A stretch of DNA of 64,000 nucleotides from an uncultured Pirellulaceae bacterium (GTDB lineage: Bacteria; Planctomycetota; Planctomycetia; Pirellulales; Pirellulaceae): the NCBI GenBank assembly GCA_938084685.1, contig CALKGE010000001.1, positions 1,116,001 to 1,180,000 of the forward strand, given 5' to 3'. The position numbers and the translations under genes are program-made. The notes under the pieces were generated by a model. It saw only the letters and a list, made by a program, of their open reading frames with translations. It made no database searches and was not told where the DNA came from. Below are positions 54,393-63,028 of this stretch, piece after piece. Each line of letters starts with the position of its first letter. The stretch's first letter is position 1.

Positions 54393-57300
54393 ATGATGAA
54401 AGTACAACACCTCTCCGTACTTCCAATGGCCACCATACTGCTTGCCATTGGAGCAGCGACGGCACTGCCTGCTCATGCTCAAAAACCCAAAGAAAGCGTT
54501 TACGAAAGCTTTGAAACGGTAAAGTCAGGGGAGTTTAGCGAGCTGCAGACTGCTTTGGGTCAATGGCGCGCCGAATCTGGAAGTACCGTGGTAAAGCCTG
54601 GCTATTTTAAGTCCGGAAATCAATGTTTGCAGCTGACCGGTGGTGAAAAGACAAGTGTGGTACTGGATGTTAACGTTGCCGTAGATGACCGAACAGAGCT
54701 GAGCTTTTGGGCTGAACGATGGACAGCCAGAACCCCTTTTTTATTTCGTATTGAGAAAAATGCAGGAAATGGTTGGCAGGAGATCTATAACGGTGATGGC
54801 AAAGTGCGCGTGGGACGTGCGTTTCTCAATCATGTCAAAATCCCACTCGCAGATCCGCAGTTGAAACAACTCCGTTTTACCTGCAGCAGCCCACCCAATA
54901 CCGGAGTCATGCTTGATGACATCAGGATCGCTCCGGCTAAGCCTCAAAAAATTGAGAGTGTGGAAATGGTTCCCTTTACACTCCCGGCGTTGGTTGGTGC
55001 GAAAGCGAGTCCCTTGTTCAAACTGCGTATTGAGACAAGCGGGTCAGTGAACCCGGTTTCTGTGGTAGGGGTAGAGGCCAGAGTGGTTGGCACTGACGTA
55101 CTGGATTCACTGTCCATTCGACACGACAGCGGTGATTCTGTGGGTATCACATTTCCAGAAAAAGTGAACCGGTTTTTACCGTGGACGTTCAGTCCAATTG
55201 AGTTGCACGAGGGAGAAAACATCGTCTGGCTCGAAGGGCAACTCGCGGCAGATACCAGTATCGATGGTCAGATAGGAATGGCTTGTCGGGCAGTCAAGTT
55301 CTCCAATGGAGAAAGGGTAACAACTGGCATTCGAGCGACCAGGCAGCGGAAGGGAGTGGCCTTGAGGACCGGGGGGGATGACGGAGTAAATACCTATCGG
55401 ATTCCAGGATTGGCCACGACTAAGGAAGGAACGTTGATCGGAGTCTACGATGTGCGTCGCTGCAGCGGTGGTGATTTACCCGGTGATATTGATGTTGGTA
55501 TGTCGCGATCCACCGATGGAGGCCAAACATGGGAACCGATGAGGATCATCATGGATATGGGAGATGATCCAGAGTGGCACTATGACGGAATCGGTGACCC
55601 GGCTGTTTTAGTAGATGAAGGAACCGGCACAATTTGGGTGGCTGCAACCTGGAGCCACGGGAATCGCTCCTGGCGAGGCTCCGGCCCCGGATTGACTCCG
55701 GAAGAGACTGGGCAGTTGATGCTGGTCCGTAGTGACGATGATGGAGAAACCTGGTCGAAACCGATCAATATCACAGAACAGGTAAAACGTCCTGAATGGT
55801 GTTTTATTCTGCAGGGGCCTGGCAAGGGAATAACGATGCGTGATGGGACGATTGTATTTGCCGCCCAGTATCAGGATCCTCCTGAGCAAAATCGACTTCC
55901 CCACTCAACGATCATCTACTCCAAAGACCATGGAAAAACTTGGGAGGCGGGAACTGGCGCTTTTGATGATACGACGGAATCTCAGGTCGTTGAGATTGAA
56001 CGCGGCGTGCTGATGCTCAATTGCCGTTACAATCGCAAATCGACTCGAGTGGTGATGGTTACCAGAGATATGGGGAAGACCTGGCAAAAACATCCAACTT
56101 CTGAACGAGCATTAATTGAACCACGAGCCTGTATGGGCAGTCTGATCGATATCGACCGTGAAGTGGATTCGATTGAAGGAGTTACACAGAGCCTGTCCAA
56201 CTCGAAATGGCTGCTGTTTTCAAATCCGAACAGCTTGAGCGGTCGTAATCATATCACGATCAAGGCCTCTCCAGACAATGGAAGTACTTGGCCGAAACAG
56301 CATCGGTTGCTGTTGGATGAACATGGCAGTGCGGGGTATTCCTGCATGTCGATGATCGACGATAAGACGGTTGGGATTCTGTATGAAGGAAGCCAAAGTC
56401 ATATGACGTTTCAGCGGATTCCGCTCAGGGATGGTCTTGAAATCGGTGACAAGTTGGGAATACGTCTGCCCCAGCCGTTCCGAAAACGCCTTCAGCTCCC
56501 GAATGTATTCAGTGATCATATGGTCTTGCAAGCCAATAGTGTGCTGCCTGTGTTTGGGACGGCTTTGAAAGGCCAGAGAATTTTTGTGACGTTGGGCGAG
56601 GAGATGCGGGAAGCGGTGGCAGACCAGGATGGGAAATGGCGAGTGGACTTTTCCCCTCGCGATTACTCGACCGACCCGATTGAATTAAGAGTCAAAGCTG
56701 GATTGGAACTTCGAGTCATAAAAGACATTCTGATTGGAGAAGTTTGGGTTTGTGCCGGACAGTCCAATATGGAGTGGATGTTACAGCAGTCCACTAACTG
56801 GAAAACTGAACTTGCTAATGCCTCGCATCCACATCTTCGGCTGTTACATCTGGCAGGTAACGCTCGTGGTCTGCCGGGGAGTTACTCAGTAGAAGATTTG
56901 GAAAGACTCTCGCCAGAGAACTACTGTCGTGGGCAATGGGAAGTGGCGACTGAGGAGACGGCCAGGAGCTTTTCGGCAGTGGGGTGGTACTTTGGCCGAT
57001 CCCTGCAGCAGCATCTGGATGTTCCTGTCGGTTTGATTTGCCCCGCGGTAGGAGGTTCACCTACCGAAGCCTGGATTTCACGTGAGGCGTTGGAGAAGGA
57101 CCCAGAATTGAATGGTCTGGTGGCTGGCAATTGGCTGGATAATGATTTACTAAGTGAGTTTTGCCGTTCACGCGGCGAACAGAACCTGTTGGTTCCGATG
57201 CAGGCTGGCGAGTATATTCCGACAGATGAACTGGGGCCTAATCACCCTTTCAAGCCCGGGTTTATGTGGGATGCCGGGATTGAACCTCTGATTCCTTTCG

Positions 57301-57956
57301 CGATCCGAGGTGTGATCTGGTACCAGGGAGAATCTAACGCTGAACGAGCGATGAGGGTCGGGCAGCACGAACGAATATTTGTACAGATGATTGAATCGTG
57401 GCGGAAGCATTGGGAACAGGGTGACTTCCCTTTTCTATATGTGCAGTTGCCAGCTATCGATCGTCCCCATTGGCCTGAGTTCAGAGATAGTCAACGTCGA
57501 ATTCTGCAGCAGGTGCCCAACTCAGGGATGGCGATTACCATCGATACAGGAGAAAAGACCGACGTGCATCCGGCTTTGAAGAAACCGGTGGGTGAGCGAT
57601 TGGCACGTTGGGCGTTGGGGACGACCTATCGCAAAGAATCCCATGCGGACTACTCTGGCCCGCTTTTTGAATCCATGGACATCCAGGGCAATACGCTGAA
57701 ACTTTCGTTTGCGCATACTTACGATGGATTGAAGTCTGCGGACGGTCAGCCCCTGCGACACTTCGAAGTTTGTGGCGCCGATGGCGTGTTCCATCCCGCC
57801 GTCGCCCAAATAGGTTCAGATAACACGATCCTGATTTCCAGTGAACAGGTAGCCGAGCCTAAGCACGCAAGGTATGCCTGGGTACCGTTTCCTTCGCCTG
57901 AAGTTAATCTGGTCAACAGTGCTGGTTTGCCTGCTTCACCCTTTACGACAGAATAG
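54393..57956 (+). CDS. Sialidase fused to sialate O-acetylesterase, secreted
   Basis: This 1187-residue protein starts at ATG 54393 with a signal peptide (~30 residues, ending AHAQ); longer in-frame starts at 54327 are rejected. Residues ~200-320 resemble the sialidase N-terminal (BNR-associated) domain. The propeller (residues ~330-690) has the YRIP Arg motif (~335), five Asp boxes (STDGGQTW ~373, SDDDGETW ~446, SKDHGKTW ~509, TRDMGKTW ~556, SPDNGSTW ~626), EPRACMGS and GYSCMSM with the nucleophilic Tyr, and GILYE. The C-terminal domain (residues ~710-1185) is a SASA esterase with GQSNM (~788), GVIWYQGESN (~990) and DVHPALKKPVGERLA (~1056). Both sets of catalytic residues look complete, so one polypeptide could deacetylate and cleave sialic acids. 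Confidence 0.88.
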   Translation: MMKVQHLSVLPMATILLAIGAATALPAHAQKPKESVYESFETVKSGEFSELQTALGQWRAESGSTVVKPGYFKSGNQCLQLTGGEKTSVVLDVNVAVDDRTELSFWAERWTARTPFLFRIEKNAGNGWQEIYNGDGKVRVGRAFLNHVKIPLADPQLKQLRFTCSSPPNTGVMLDDIRIAPAKPQKIESVEMVPFTLPALVGAKASPLFKLRIETSGSVNPVSVVGVEARVVGTDVLDSLSIRHDSGDSVGITFPEKVNRFLPWTFSPIELHEGENIVWLEGQLAADTSIDGQIGMACRAVKFSNGERVTTGIRATRQRKGVALRTGGDDGVNTYRIPGLATTKEGTLIGVYDVRRCSGGDLPGDIDVGMSRSTDGGQTWEPMRIIMDMGDDPEWHYDGIGDPAVLVDEGTGTIWVAATWSHGNRSWRGSGPGLTPEETGQLMLVRSDDDGETWSKPINITEQVKRPEWCFILQGPGKGITMRDGTIVFAAQYQDPPEQNRLPHSTIIYSKDHGKTWEAGTGAFDDTTESQVVEIERGVLMLNCRYNRKSTRVVMVTRDMGKTWQKHPTSERALIEPRACMGSLIDIDREVDSIEGVTQSLSNSKWLLFSNPNSLSGRNHITIKASPDNGSTWPKQHRLLLDEHGSAGYSCMSMIDDKTVGILYEGSQSHMTFQRIPLRDGLEIGDKLGIRLPQPFRKRLQLPNVFSDHMVLQANSVLPVFGTALKGQRIFVTLGEEMREAVADQDGKWRVDFSPRDYSTDPIELRVKAGLELRVIKDILIGEVWVCAGQSNMEWMLQQSTNWKTELANASHPHLRLLHLAGNARGLPGSYSVEDLERLSPENYCRGQWEVATEETARSFSAVGWYFGRSLQQHLDVPVGLICPAVGGSPTEAWISREALEKDPELNGLVAGNWLDNDLLSEFCRSRGEQNLLVPMQAGEYIPTDELGPNHPFKPGFMWDAGIEPLIPFAIRGVIWYQGESNAERAMRVGQHERIFVQMIESWRKHWEQGDFPFLYVQLPAIDRPHWPEFRDSQRRILQQVPNSGMAITIDTGEKTDVHPALKKPVGERLARWALGTTYRKESHADYSGPLFESMDIQGNTLKLSFAHTYDGLKSADGQPLRHFEVCGADGVFHPAVAQIGSDNTILISSEQVAEPKHARYAWVPFPSPEVNLVNSAGLPASPFTTE

Positions 57957-57962
57957 GGTTAC

Positions 57963-58892
57963 CTACTTGTCCTGAGGTAGAAACGGGAAAAGTTCCTTTA
58001 GCTGCTGGGTTGTTGGTCGCGAGCCGTACTCACAGACCTCAAAGGCTTCTGCGTACTTTACTTTGCTTCCTGCTTCCACACCGTAGAGTCTGATGAGTTG
58101 CTCACGGTACTTATTGGCTTCGTTCCCCTGGCGACGTGCCCAACGTTCATGCAACCATTCACGCCGCGCTTCAGGGTCGCTGGCCGGCGGGACAAGGGCA
58201 AGTCGTTCCGGACTTCCGCCAGCTCCCCCTTCAAAGGCTTGCGATACCAGGGCTGTCAGAGCATCCACTTTTTTGTCGAACACAGAATCCAGCGATACGA
58301 CAATATCCGGGTCAAATGGATAGGGTTTGGTAAAGCGGTCGCTGGAATAGAGGAAGACAGGATTCTTTTTGAGGTGCGGTACATCAGGGCAAAAGAATGG
58401 TACGGTCACCATAAAGGCTGCGTCCTGAACCAGAACGCCGGTGTAACGATGGTCGGGATGATAATCCCAGGGCCGATGAGAAATGACAATGTCCGCTTTC
58501 CATTCGCGGATAATCTTGCAGATCGTTTTACGATTCTCCAAAGTTGGCAATAACTCGCCATCGTGAATGTCCAACACTTTGGAATGAACTCCCAGTCGCT
58601 TTGCACATTCGGCAGACTCGGCAGTTCTCCGCTGAGCGAGTTCGCCGCCCGACATTCGCCAGTGTCCAATGTCTCCGTTGGTAACCGAGACCAGCAGGAC
58701 ATGGTGTCCGTGTTCTGCCCACAAGGCAGCCGTTCCACCTGACTTGTATTCGGCGTCATCCGGATGAGCTCCGAAGCAGACAATTCGAAGTTTTCCATCG
58801 TCGTTGGGAACTTGCAGGTCGGCACCGTTGATGACAGTATCAGTACACAAAGTGACTGCAAAGATGGCTAGTAGGATGGCAGGGTAACGCAT
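57963..58892 (-). CDS. PIG-L/LmbE family deacetylase, secreted
   Basis: This 309-residue protein has a signal peptide (~24 residues) and the PIG-L zinc motif GAHPDDAE (residues ~41-48) with the second HPDHR (residues ~150-154). The family removes N-acetyl groups from sugars such as N-acetylglucosamine. It is translated from the same transcript as the sulfatase upstream (39 bases away) and converges with the sialidase-SASA gene, which suggests a shared substrate such as a sulfated, acetylated glycan. Confidence 0.88.
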   Translation of the reverse strand: MRYPAILLAIFAVTLCTDTVINGADLQVPNDDGKLRIVCFGAHPDDAEYKSGGTAALWAEHGHHVLLVSVTNGDIGHWRMSGGELAQRRTAESAECAKRLGVHSKVLDIHDGELLPTLENRKTICKIIREWKADIVISHRPWDYHPDHRYTGVLVQDAAFMVTVPFFCPDVPHLKKNPVFLYSSDRFTKPYPFDPDIVVSLDSVFDKKVDALTALVSQAFEGGAGGSPERLALVPPASDPEARREWLHERWARRQGNEANKYREQLIRLYGVEAGSKVKYAEAFEVCEYGSRPTTQQLKELFPFLPQDK

Positions 58893-58931: not shown

Positions 58932-60386
58932 TTATTTTTCCACGAAGCGACTGGCGGCCTGGTAGGCATTGTGTCCGGTTGAGTTTCCAGGCAGCACCTC
59001 TTCCTGTTCGGTGGGAATATGAGCTTTGTGTTGTTTGATTGTTTTGGCGTAGGAACGTTTGTTGATCACGTTGTTCCATTCATGGGGGTCGTTGCGGTGA
59101 TCATAAAATTCCTCCGAGCCGTCCAGATATTGGATATAGCGGAAATGCTCGGACCGCACAGCGAAGTTCCCTTTTCCAAAAGAGGAGATGGCGGGGTGCC
59201 CCCATGCGGCTTGCGGATCTTCTAGTAAAGGAACCAGTGAGTTACCTTCCTGAGTGTCGTCGTTCGGTAGGCCCGCTAGCTCCAGCAGGGTAGGAAACAG
59301 ATCCAGCAGTTCAGCGGGCTTGGTTGAAACCTGCCCAGCATGAAATCGTTTATCAACGACAATCAAAGGAACACGCGTACCATCCTCCCAAATCGTTCGT
59401 TTGGCCCAGCGTTGTTTTTCGCCGAGATGAAATCCGTGGTCAGAGAAAAGGACGACAATCGTATTCTCTTTATGTGGCGACCTGTCCAGAGCATCCAGAA
59501 CAATTCCCAGGCAGTGGTCGGCGAAAGCGACTGAGGCCAGATAGGATTGGACAGCATGTTCCCACTGCCCGGCGGAAACAACCCAGCTGTGTTCAGGCGA
59601 GACATGTTTTTCATTGGTCAGTGCGATTGCGTAGTCGCTGAGGTCGTCGCGGTCGTGTTGGTTGACGACTGGAAGACTGACTTCATCCCTGGGAAACAGA
59701 TCGAACCATTTCTTGGGAGCAAACATGGGAACATGAGGACGGTAGAATCCAACTCCCATAAAAAATGGCTTGTCTGAGTCCGCTGGAATTGACTTGAGTT
59801 TTCCGGCAGCCCATTGTGCGATCTTGAAATCAGGCATCAGTTCATCGCTCTCGGGAAACGCTCCCCAATCCCAGAGCGGATGACCGTGAGGTTGCGAGAT
59901 TTTTGTTTTGGGGCGTGGGCCAAAGCCGCCCATCGATCCTCCGTATTCCTGAAAAAACCGCTGGTCTCTGGTGTGGAAAATCTTTCCTGCGGCCAGCGTT
60001 TGATATCCATGTTTGGCAAAACGCTCAGGCATGGTGTCGAGGTTTTCCAGTTTCGGAGCCTGCTGCAGGTCTGGGGAAAGAAAATAAATCCCGGAAGTGT
60101 GAGGGTAACGTCCCGTCTGCATACTGGCGCGCGATGGATTGCATACGGGTGATTGGCAGTGGGCGTTGGAAAAGAGGGTCCCGCGATCAGCTAGCCGGTC
60201 AATATTGGGCGTTTTGGCCTGAGGGTGTCCACCCAGACAACCGGTCCAGTCATTGAGATCATCGATGGATATCAGCAGGACATTGGGTTTGTCAGCTGCT
60301 GAGGCAGATGGAGAGCAGTGGACGGTGATGAGAACTAGTAAGGCAAAAGCTGCGTGGGGCAGGGGGGCTCTATTCATTGTTTTCAT
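58932..60386 (-). CDS. Formylglycine-dependent sulfatase, secreted
   Basis: This 484-residue protein has a signal peptide (~31 residues, ending ASA) and the sulfatase motif CNPSRASMQTG (Cys near residue 82; C-x-P-S-R), whose Cys is converted to formylglycine. Metal-binding Asp residues appear in LISIDDLND and FSDHGFHLGE. It is close to iduronate-2-sulfatase and choline-sulfatase-like enzymes; the substrate cannot be assigned. A formylglycine-generating enzyme must exist elsewhere in the genome. It is followed by a PIG-L deacetylase in the same operon. Confidence 0.92.
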   Translation of the reverse strand: MKTMNRAPLPHAAFALLVLITVHCSPSASAADKPNVLLISIDDLNDWTGCLGGHPQAKTPNIDRLADRGTLFSNAHCQSPVCNPSRASMQTGRYPHTSGIYFLSPDLQQAPKLENLDTMPERFAKHGYQTLAAGKIFHTRDQRFFQEYGGSMGGFGPRPKTKISQPHGHPLWDWGAFPESDELMPDFKIAQWAAGKLKSIPADSDKPFFMGVGFYRPHVPMFAPKKWFDLFPRDEVSLPVVNQHDRDDLSDYAIALTNEKHVSPEHSWVVSAGQWEHAVQSYLASVAFADHCLGIVLDALDRSPHKENTIVVLFSDHGFHLGEKQRWAKRTIWEDGTRVPLIVVDKRFHAGQVSTKPAELLDLFPTLLELAGLPNDDTQEGNSLVPLLEDPQAAWGHPAISSFGKGNFAVRSEHFRYIQYLDGSEEFYDHRNDPHEWNNVINKRSYAKTIKQHKAHIPTEQEEVLPGNSTGHNAYQAASRFVEK

Positions 60387-61864: not shown

Positions 61865-63028
61865 CTAACCAACAACTGGTGCAATGCCTCCACCGACATT
61901 TCGATATTTCTCAACGTTACACAGGATTCTTAGCTGTTTGTTGGTGATAGAGGTCAAGCTGCCTAGAGAAAGCCTGTCGAGCTTACTAAGGCTCTTCGCC
62001 TGCCGATCCGTGAGAGAGGTTATGCCGTTTAGATGAAGCGTGTTAACTAAACCCAGGCTTTCCGCCTGTCGGTCCGTAAGGGTCGTTAAGCCGTTTAATT
62101 CAAGTGTGGGAACCTTGCTGAAAATTTCCGCTTGCCGGTCAGTTAACGCGGTGATGCCGTTTAGATTAAGCGTGGGAGTTTGGAATCCTATGGTAGAAGT
62201 ATTCAGGCTATCTCCAGGAGGTCTACTCAGGATTTCTGCCTGCCGATCAGTGAGAGAGGTTAAGCCATTTAACTCAAGCACTCTTACCGTACTCAAGCTT
62301 TCTGCCTGCCGATCCGTGAGAGAGGTTATGCCTTCTAGATGAAGTGCCCAGGCTGCAAACAAGCTTTCTGCCTGCTCGGCGAAACCTTTTAGCTCAACAT
62401 AACGGAATTTACTCAGGCTTTTTACCTGTGGGTCAGTGAGAGAGGTTAAGCTGTTTAACTTGAGTGTCATGACGTTGCCGAGCTCTTCTGCTTGTCGGTC
62501 AGTGAGGGTCGTTAAACCGTTCAACCATATTTCGGGAACCCTACCCAGGCTTTCTGCCTGTGCATCAGAGAGAGAGGTTAAGCCATTTAAGGCAAGCTTT
62601 CTAACTTTACTCAAGCCCTCAGCCTGCCGATCAGTGAGGGTCGTCAAACCATTTAACTCAAGGAAGCCAACTTCACCCAAGTACTTTGCCTGTCGGTCGG
62701 AAATGGTGGATAAGCCGTTTAACTCAAGCACTCTTACCTTACTCAGGATTTCTGCCTGCGCATCAGTAAGAGAGGTTAATCCGTTTAGATTAAGTTTATC
62801 AACCTTACTCAAAGCCTCTGCCTGGTGGTCAGAAATGGTGGTTATGCCATTTAATTCTAGCGCGCTAACCTTTTTCAAGCATTTTGCCTGTCGATCCGTG
62901 AGAGAGCTTAAGCCGTTTAAATCGAGCTCTTTATACTGTTCAACGGATTTGAATTTTCGTGGCGATGCCCCCTCTGTCAACAATGGCGCGATGAAGCAGA
63001 ATGCCAGTACCTGTAAGGTTCTAATCAT
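61865..63028 (-). CDS. Secreted protein with ~14 atypical 22-residue leucine repeats
   Basis: This 387-residue protein has GGGAGGAAA before ATG 63028 and a signal peptide (~19 residues). Residues ~28-370 are about 14 copies of a 22-residue unit reading LTDRQAE.LSKV..L.LNGLTS, with the LNG triplet and Gln-Ala step strongly conserved. It differs from the LRR style of the lipoprotein at 24945-26303 by its shorter unit and by TDRQAE in place of DAGL. It should be a secreted solenoid with a repeated ligand-facing surface. The next gene on the strand is a zinc-ribbon protein. Confidence 0.8.
   Translation of the reverse strand: MIRTLQVLAFCFIAPLLTEGASPRKFKSVEQYKELDLNGLSSLTDRQAKCLKKVSALELNGITTISDHQAEALSKVDKLNLNGLTSLTDAQAEILSKVRVLELNGLSTISDRQAKYLGEVGFLELNGLTTLTDRQAEGLSKVRKLALNGLTSLSDAQAESLGRVPEIWLNGLTTLTDRQAEELGNVMTLKLNSLTSLTDPQVKSLSKFRYVELKGFAEQAESLFAAWALHLEGITSLTDRQAESLSTVRVLELNGLTSLTDRQAEILSRPPGDSLNTSTIGFQTPTLNLNGITALTDRQAEIFSKVPTLELNGLTTLTDRQAESLGLVNTLHLNGITSLTDRQAKSLSKLDRLSLGSLTSITNKQLRILCNVEKYRNVGGGIAPVVG
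61950..62940 (-). repeat. 66-base tandem protein-coding repeat
   Basis: The coding sequence of the solenoid protein is a tandem array of a 66-base unit with varying third positions, encoding the 22-residue LTDRQAE..LNGL repeat. One unit near 62160-62230 is expanded and one near 62350 is shortened. It is a protein-repeat array, not a DNA element such as CRISPR. Confidence 0.85.

Follow-up and report, generated by a model that had tools for sequence, protein, structure and literature searches.

Work on sialidases centres on gut and pathogenic bacteria. The closest precedent for the protein described here is SiaBb1 of Bifidobacterium bifidum, a single polypeptide reported to carry a GH33 sialidase and a sialate-O-acetylesterase (PMC7232152, PMC10298468, PMC10017367), the esterase domain of which is reported to strip the 9-O-acetyl group, so that sialic acid is freed from mucin more efficiently (PMC7232152, PMC10298468). 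SiaBb3, from the same species, is described as combining GH33 with GH123 (PMC12856340). For planctomycetes, a survey of carbohydrate-active enzymes covers multi-modular enzymes, and none of the words GH33, CE20, sialidase and sialic occurs in its main text (PMC11131199). Here, a stretch of 64,000 nucleotides from an uncultured Pirellulaceae bacterium was analysed (the window; contig CALKGE010000001.1, positions 1,116,001 to 1,180,000). One of its genes (54393..57956, + strand, stop codon included; 1187 aa) encodes a fusion of a GH33 sialidase with a CE20 esterase. The product is probably an exported two-enzyme demodifier of sialoglycans, the CE20 domain of which would remove acetyl groups, most likely from sialic acid, before cleavage by the GH33 domain. 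Still larger proteins of this kind, with one or two sulfatases added to the chain, are encoded by marine relatives.

The gene was read as a single open frame from an ATG at 54393 to the stop codon ending at 57956; an alternative in-frame TTG upstream of this ATG would give a product of 1209 aa. From its N terminus, the product consists of a signal peptide, two further domains (a jelly roll and one that is BNR_assoc_N-like), the GH33 sialidase and the CE20 (Pfam SASA) esterase. Pfam matches were obtained with BNR_2 (5.6e-31, residues 360-657) and with SASA (1e-18, two stretches in the C-terminal half). In phmmer searches of the PDB, residues 260-680 aligned with GH33 sialidases (up to 1.8e-130, 4fj6) and the C-terminal half with CE20 esterases (up to 9e-79, 9h4u). 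The predicted Sec signal peptide (residues 1-29; 54393..54479, +) was read by eye from the sequence, as a hydrophobic stretch ending in AHA. An AlphaFold2 model based on an alignment of 16 sequences reached a mean pLDDT of 72.6 and a pTM of 0.52; its esterase part is less certain, residues 911-966 being below pLDDT 50, and because of these values the mutual orientation of the two active sites was not taken from the model.

The GH33 propeller (residues 323-682; 55359..56438, +) was delimited by Pfam, phmmer, Foldseek and alignment. Its five Asp boxes ([S/T]xDxGx[T/S/N]W) start at residues 373, 447, 510, 557 and 626, one of them with Thr. When compared by Foldseek, the model matched Bacteroidetes GH33 sialidases with a TM-score (TMt) of 0.78-0.84, the value for Tannerella NanH (7qy9) being 0.84. 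Residues R336, D361, E529, R545, Y649 and E665 were invariant in 74 close GH33 rows of the alignment, with at most one gapped row each, and R618 was invariant across all 77 GH33 rows. We take R336, R545 and R618 to be the arginine triad, D361 the acid/base, Y649 the nucleophile, E529 its glutamate partner and E665 the glutamate that steadies the first arginine of the set. The features of a GH33 exo-sialidase, namely an Asp-box propeller fold with the Arg triad, Asp, Tyr and Glu, were all found; judged by its sequence, the propeller is a canonical GH33 sialidase, predicted to hydrolyse alpha-sialosides. A rhamnosidase or other non-sialidase propeller was ruled out by the strong GH33 matches and the full catalytic set.

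The CE20/SASA SGNH O-acetylesterase domain occupies residues 699-1187 (56487..57953, +; Pfam, phmmer, Foldseek and alignment). Its catalytic residues are S791, within a GQSNM motif that starts at 789, and H1059, within D1057-V-H1059; by Foldseek, the esterase part of the model matched the CE20 structure 7kmm with a TMt of 0.81. The GQSNM motif and the histidine of [D/N]xHP were present in 39/39 fused and 21/21 unfused rows. At position 1057, two before the catalytic His, the fused rows have Asn in 32 cases and Asp in seven, a variation in keeping with published work on CE20, which describes a Ser-His-(water-Asp/Asn) triad (PMC12313940). Comparison with Fl8CE20_II left a gap of about 170 residues, which corresponds to an ancillary domain inserted in the SGNH domain and absent here; eukaryotic CE20 members, including SIAE, are likewise described as lacking it (PMC12313940). 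Membership of CE20 (SGNH fold, GQSNM serine and [D/N]xH histidine) stands, and the protein lies outside the subgroup that carries the ancillary domain. Its CE20 sequence is closer to Fl8CE20_II (4.8e-80) than to mammalian SIAE (8f9q, 9.9e-33). Since Fl8CE20_II has been linked to xylan (PMC12313940) and XacXaeA to xyloglucan (PMC8245568), the Pfam label 'sialic acid-specific' does not settle the substrate; we infer a sialate O-acetylesterase function from the fusion and the gene context.

Both complete catalytic sets are present in one predicted-secreted chain, the combination that characterises SiaBb1. An earlier note, made from the letters of the window, had placed at these coordinates a secreted fusion of a complete sialidase propeller (YRIP, five Asp boxes, catalytic Tyr and Glu) with a complete SASA esterase (GQSNM, DVHP). 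The single frame and the Pfam and PDB matches bear this out; YRIP was found at 335 and DVHP at 1057 together with the other motifs named, and the signal peptide fits secretion. Two N-terminal beta-sandwich domains are added to that description. The first (residues ~38-181; 54504..54935, +) is a jelly roll of CBM/MAM-like fold, identified by AlphaFold2 (residues 30-193 modelled alone, pLDDT 84.5) and by its structural similarity to domains of the CBM4-2, CBM16 and MAM types, with Z values of up to 13. No sequence match to it was found in the PDB (best E 0.91); as the fold is a generic CBM/MAM jelly roll, assignment to a named CBM family was dropped and no binding specificity is claimed. The second (residues ~184-310; 54942..55322, +) is BNR_assoc_N-like (PF14873, Foldseek) and corresponds to the N-terminal domain of Bacteroidetes sialidases, the Foldseek alignments spanning 531-548 columns against sialidases of 511-526 residues. 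PF14873 scored below threshold in the window protein and above the cut-off in six of the eight GH33-CE20 relatives scanned.

The window protein was used to scan 84,980 named genomes, and nine loci matched most of it at 55-65% identity (best segment). Their hosts were Rubripirellula, Planctomicrobium, other Planctomycetota and two Opitutia/Opitutae metagenome-assembled genomes (MAGs). Several of these frames extend far past the match, to 2155-2176 residues, and in the long frames Pfam placed two sulfatases, one ahead of the sandwich domains and one behind CE20. Among 392 genomes sampled across the phylum, the alignment ran through both halves in three (G000, G121 and G381), and a GH33/CE20 fusion in reversed order was found in G196 (L135, 1227 aa). 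Within the family of the window genome (241 genomes), 91 carry a GH33 match at 1e-60 or better. The close group comprised 58 places, of which 56 were examined (the window and 55 fetched stretches), two contig-end fragments (G573:C386 and G513:C245) being left out; L080 was counted with two GH33 rows, giving 57 rows for the 56 places.

GH33 and CE20 share one frame in 35 of these 56, in 35 different genomes, and a sulfatase is part of the GH33 frame in 20. A complete sulfatase-GH33-CE20-sulfatase protein of about 2150-2220 residues is encoded at six places (L089, L090, L091, L098, L107 and L111), with a further one (L006) outside the 56-place census; seven places encode a complete sulfatase-GH33-CE20 protein, and four (L082, L094, L097 and L109) have an extra SASA esterase between GH33 and CE20. 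Frames with four catalytic domains, of 2155-2216 residues, were located at L001:4522-10986, L005:4522-11049, L006:2126-8626, L089:4389-10931, L090:4195-10740, L098:3790-10260 and L111:4104-10751. The fused sulfatases carry CNPSR or CSPSR; the C-terminal sulfatase has CSSSR in L104, L111 and L129, and truncated copies also deviate. Among solved structures, those closest to the N-terminal sulfatase include an arylsulfatase and iduronate-2-sulfatase, and those closest to the C-terminal one include SGSH, S1_8A and a mucin-desulfating sulfatase; on such comparisons, the substrate of the sulfatase domains is left unfixed.

Other arrangements were also seen. One frame (L102:263-3994, -; 1244 residues) encodes a SASA esterase, a GDSL esterase and then GH33, and Chthoniobacteraceae MAGs carry a CE20-sulfatase fusion without GH33 (L012:716-4459 and L013:5905-9657). 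Separate GH33 and CE20 genes lie close together in G287 and G342, and a stand-alone CE20 lies near GH33 at L033 and L040 (two of 15 stand-alone CE20 loci, with flanks of about 1.5 kb). In 41 relatives of G342, GH33 was matched at 1e-60 in two, neither with a frame long enough for a fusion. In-frame stops interrupt otherwise open sulfatase/GH33 frames at L007:5755-5757 (TAA), L084:1806-1808 (TAG) and L080:3613-3615 (TGA); recoding was set aside and decay or assembly error considered likelier, since the stops differ in kind and L080 also has an internal loss that takes away most of CE20.

Trees were computed without duplicate records (L107, L091, L082 and L115) and without L015-L018 and L050-L079. 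Different architectures are interspersed among close relatives on the GH33 tree, where the 11 labels require 28 changes and shuffled labels a mean of 42.2; domains have thus repeatedly been gained or lost. On the CE20 tree the fused domains lie on one side of a branch and the stand-alone ones on the other (support 73). The reversed fusion was placed apart in both trees, and in the CE20 tree it groups with L136, L040 and L033, all near GH33 genes; on this placement, the G196 fusion is read as having arisen independently. The GH33 and CE20 domains of the Opitutia/Opitutae cases (L002 and L003) nest inside the planctomycete set, which suggests either transfer or misbinned contigs, both cases being short MAG contigs for which a binning error is possible.

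Putative genes for the use of sialic acid adjoin many of the relatives. At L132 (G421), the GH33 gene is followed by genes for a NanA-like lyase, a NanM-like mutarotase-symporter fusion and an N-acylglucosamine 2-epimerase (AGE); this apparent nan operon occupies L132:9041-13880, and the mutarotase fused to a sodium/solute symporter is 888 aa long. The three L132 proteins were searched against all fetched stretches, and nan-type genes were named by best NCBIfam hit and context. At least one of NanA, NanM-symporter and AGE adjoins 23 of the 56 close places, and 16 of the 35 fused ones; many stretches stop at contig ends, which makes 23/56, a raw count, a lower bound. This set includes the four-catalytic-domain L098 and all seven sulfatase-GH33-CE20 proteins; the NanA matches beside those seven are about 31% identical, each accompanied by a NanM-symporter at 46-47%. 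AGE lies inside the fetched stretch at 10 of the 56 places; with about one to two AGE copies per genome of roughly 6 Mb, the probability of such proximity by chance was estimated at well under 1%. AGE-family matches occur in 149 of the 241 genomes of the window genome's family. This nan-type context speaks for sialic acid as the substrate. The earlier note had remarked that planctomycetes are not usually regarded as sialic-acid specialists; a view of them as non-users is not supported, given the nan-type genes beside 23 of the 56 places and the NanA of planctomycetes noted in 2009 (PMC2693436).

The neighbours of the fusion gene within the window are convergent with it: a PIG-L family de-N-acetylase gene (57963..58892, -; Pfam) and an S1-type sulfatase gene (58932..60386, -; Pfam), the product of which shares 34% identity with the sulfatase at the N terminus of the larger fusions. 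The pair is kept beside the fusion in the sister genomes G615 and G618 (L080 and L081). The window genome (3.43 Mb, 14 contigs, 89.75% complete) also has a second GH33 (535 aa) and a BNR_2 protein near a stand-alone CE20. A 387-residue repeat protein (LTDRQAE/LNGLT), with weak leucine-rich repeat and TBD matches, is encoded further along the window (61865-63028, -).

In the reading we favour, and regard as likely, the N-terminal beta-sandwich domains would probably hold the glycan, the CE20 half would hydrolyse O-acetyl esters, most likely those of sialic acid, after which the unblocked sialic acid would be freed by the GH33 half through a Tyr/Glu retaining mechanism, with deacetylation and cleavage taking place on one tethered glycan. 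In many relatives, the sulfatase domains of the same chain would presumably desulfate this glycan as well, and the released sugar would pass into a NanM-symporter/NanA/AGE pathway. The single frame, both catalytic sets, the conserved fusion and the nan-type context in relatives are observed; we infer the activities, their order of action, the position of the acetyl group and the cellular location. This reading is favoured because the motifs are conserved, fusion is recurrent, the reversed fusion is independent, nan-type genes are neighbours and SiaBb1 provides a precedent. The proposal of the earlier note, that one protein could remove the O-acetyl block and cleave in one step, is partly supported, by the canonical GH33, the esterase motifs, the recurrent pairing and SiaBb1; the sialate-directed esterase that it assumes is a putative one. 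Several observations weigh against the favoured reading. Among characterised CE20 enzymes, the closest deacetylate plant polysaccharides (PMC12313940), the grouping of fused CE20 domains has a weak support value (73), and both the NanA-like and the AGE proteins beside relatives score below NCBIfam cut-offs. The window gene itself lies outside any nan cluster, with PIG-L and the sulfatase as neighbours and no NanA, NanM-symporter or AGE match in the 64 kb. The earlier note had proposed a search of the genome for nan genes: a NanA-like protein (L047, with 37% identity to the lyase of L132 and 44% to that adjoining L003) and a NanM-like protein (34%, 5.7e-41) are present, and neither NanE nor AGE was found in the 89.75% complete genome. 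Across the genus, AGE matches numbered three in nine genomes searched, none better than 1e-4. With no epimerase found in its own genome, the sialidase may work in uncapping or cross-feeding, or supply a route that is not recognised. Finally, the fusion gene is broken in the sister genome G615.

That the GH33 half is a sialidase and the CE20 half deacetylates another sugar of the glycan (Gal, GalNAc, Fuc or Xyl) would fit the action of the closest CE20 relatives on xylan and xyloglucan (PMC12313940), the apparent targeting of a multiply decorated glycan by relatives that add sulfatases and a second SASA, and a genome in which no known ManNAc epimerase was found, which suits uncapping over feeding. 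We consider it unlikely, since CE20 is the commonest fusion partner of GH33 (35/56) and occurs in two orders, the CE20 relatives of the reversed fusion adjoin GH33 genes, and the ancillary domain is missing from the fused copies, a trait also described for mammalian SIAE (PMC12313940). That the propeller prefers a different nonulosonic acid, of the KDN, legionaminic or pseudaminic type, carried by glycans of bacteria or algae, would suit the hosts, the named relatives being MAGs of free-living groups and no result pointing to an animal host; no evidence bearing directly on such a preference was found. The match of its residues to Bacteroidetes GH33 sialidases (1.8e-130; TMt ~0.8), and AGE neighbours, which take an N-acylated substrate and are unneeded for KDN catabolism, make this very unlikely. 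Least credible is that the gene is a relic, decaying in a genus that has lost sialic-acid catabolism: in the G615 copy an in-frame TGA interrupts GH33 and much of the interior of CE20 is lost, and the nine genus genomes gave no strong AGE match, whereas the window copy is unbroken and keeps its full catalytic sets, G618 has an intact syntenic copy (1216 aa) and G617 a longer relative.

A bolder extension of the sialoglycan reading, speculative and on balance rather improbable, is that the larger relatives, some of which have an additional SASA esterase, are single-chain dismantlers of marine sulfated, O-acetylated sialoglycans, at least one sulfatase of which would desulfate sialic acid itself (e.g. 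8-O-sulfated Neu5Ac) as a bacterial sialate-O-sulfatase, the window protein being the short form with its sulfatase next door. It draws on the reported occurrence of sulfated sialic acid in sea urchins and vertebrates (PMC9304399). If active as read, each of these proteins would be a tool that handles a heavily decorated sialoglycan on its own. They would also point to environmental planctomycetes as consumers of sialoglycans, from animals or elsewhere, and would allow a test of which enzymes take sulfate and acetyl off environmental sialic acids.

A search by titles and the beginnings of abstracts, largely of literature outside subscription, returned no published description of a sialidase-sulfatase fusion. 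The sialidase half resembles the Bacteroidetes GH33 enzymes (BTSA 4bbw, T. forsythia NanH 7qxo, and 4fj6) in propeller, catalytic residues and N-terminal sandwich; their solved chains have about 520 residues, without CE20 or the extra jelly-roll domain. The esterase half shares the SGNH fold, the GQSNM serine and the [D/N]xH histidine with Fl8CE20_II (9h4u), PpCE20_II (9ega) and XacXaeA (7kmm), which differ in being xylan- or xyloglucan-linked, in having the ancillary insert and, as described, in lacking a sialidase fusion. In its compact form it is like mammalian SIAE, which acts on sialic acid (PMC12313940) and is the more distant in sequence. SiaBb3 likewise joins a sialidase to an enzyme acting next on the same glycan, the second activity being a beta-N-acetylgalactosaminidase instead of an esterase (PMC12856340). 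SiaBb1, like the window protein, has a GH33 sialidase and an O-acetylesterase in one chain, a likeness of activities, with domain order, esterase family and common descent outside the comparison; unlike the window protein, it comes from a gut actinobacterium, is listed at 189 kDa in a review and is described, in the text available, with no mention of a sulfatase. Two activities are combined in SiaBb1; the longest single frames found here bring together four catalytic domains, in an exported planctomycete family that packs a sialidase, an acetylesterase and often one or two sulfatases per chain, many beside nan-type genes. The pairing of sialidase and O-acetylesterase is thus already known from SiaBb1, and what is unexpected is the larger planctomycete multi-enzyme family around it.

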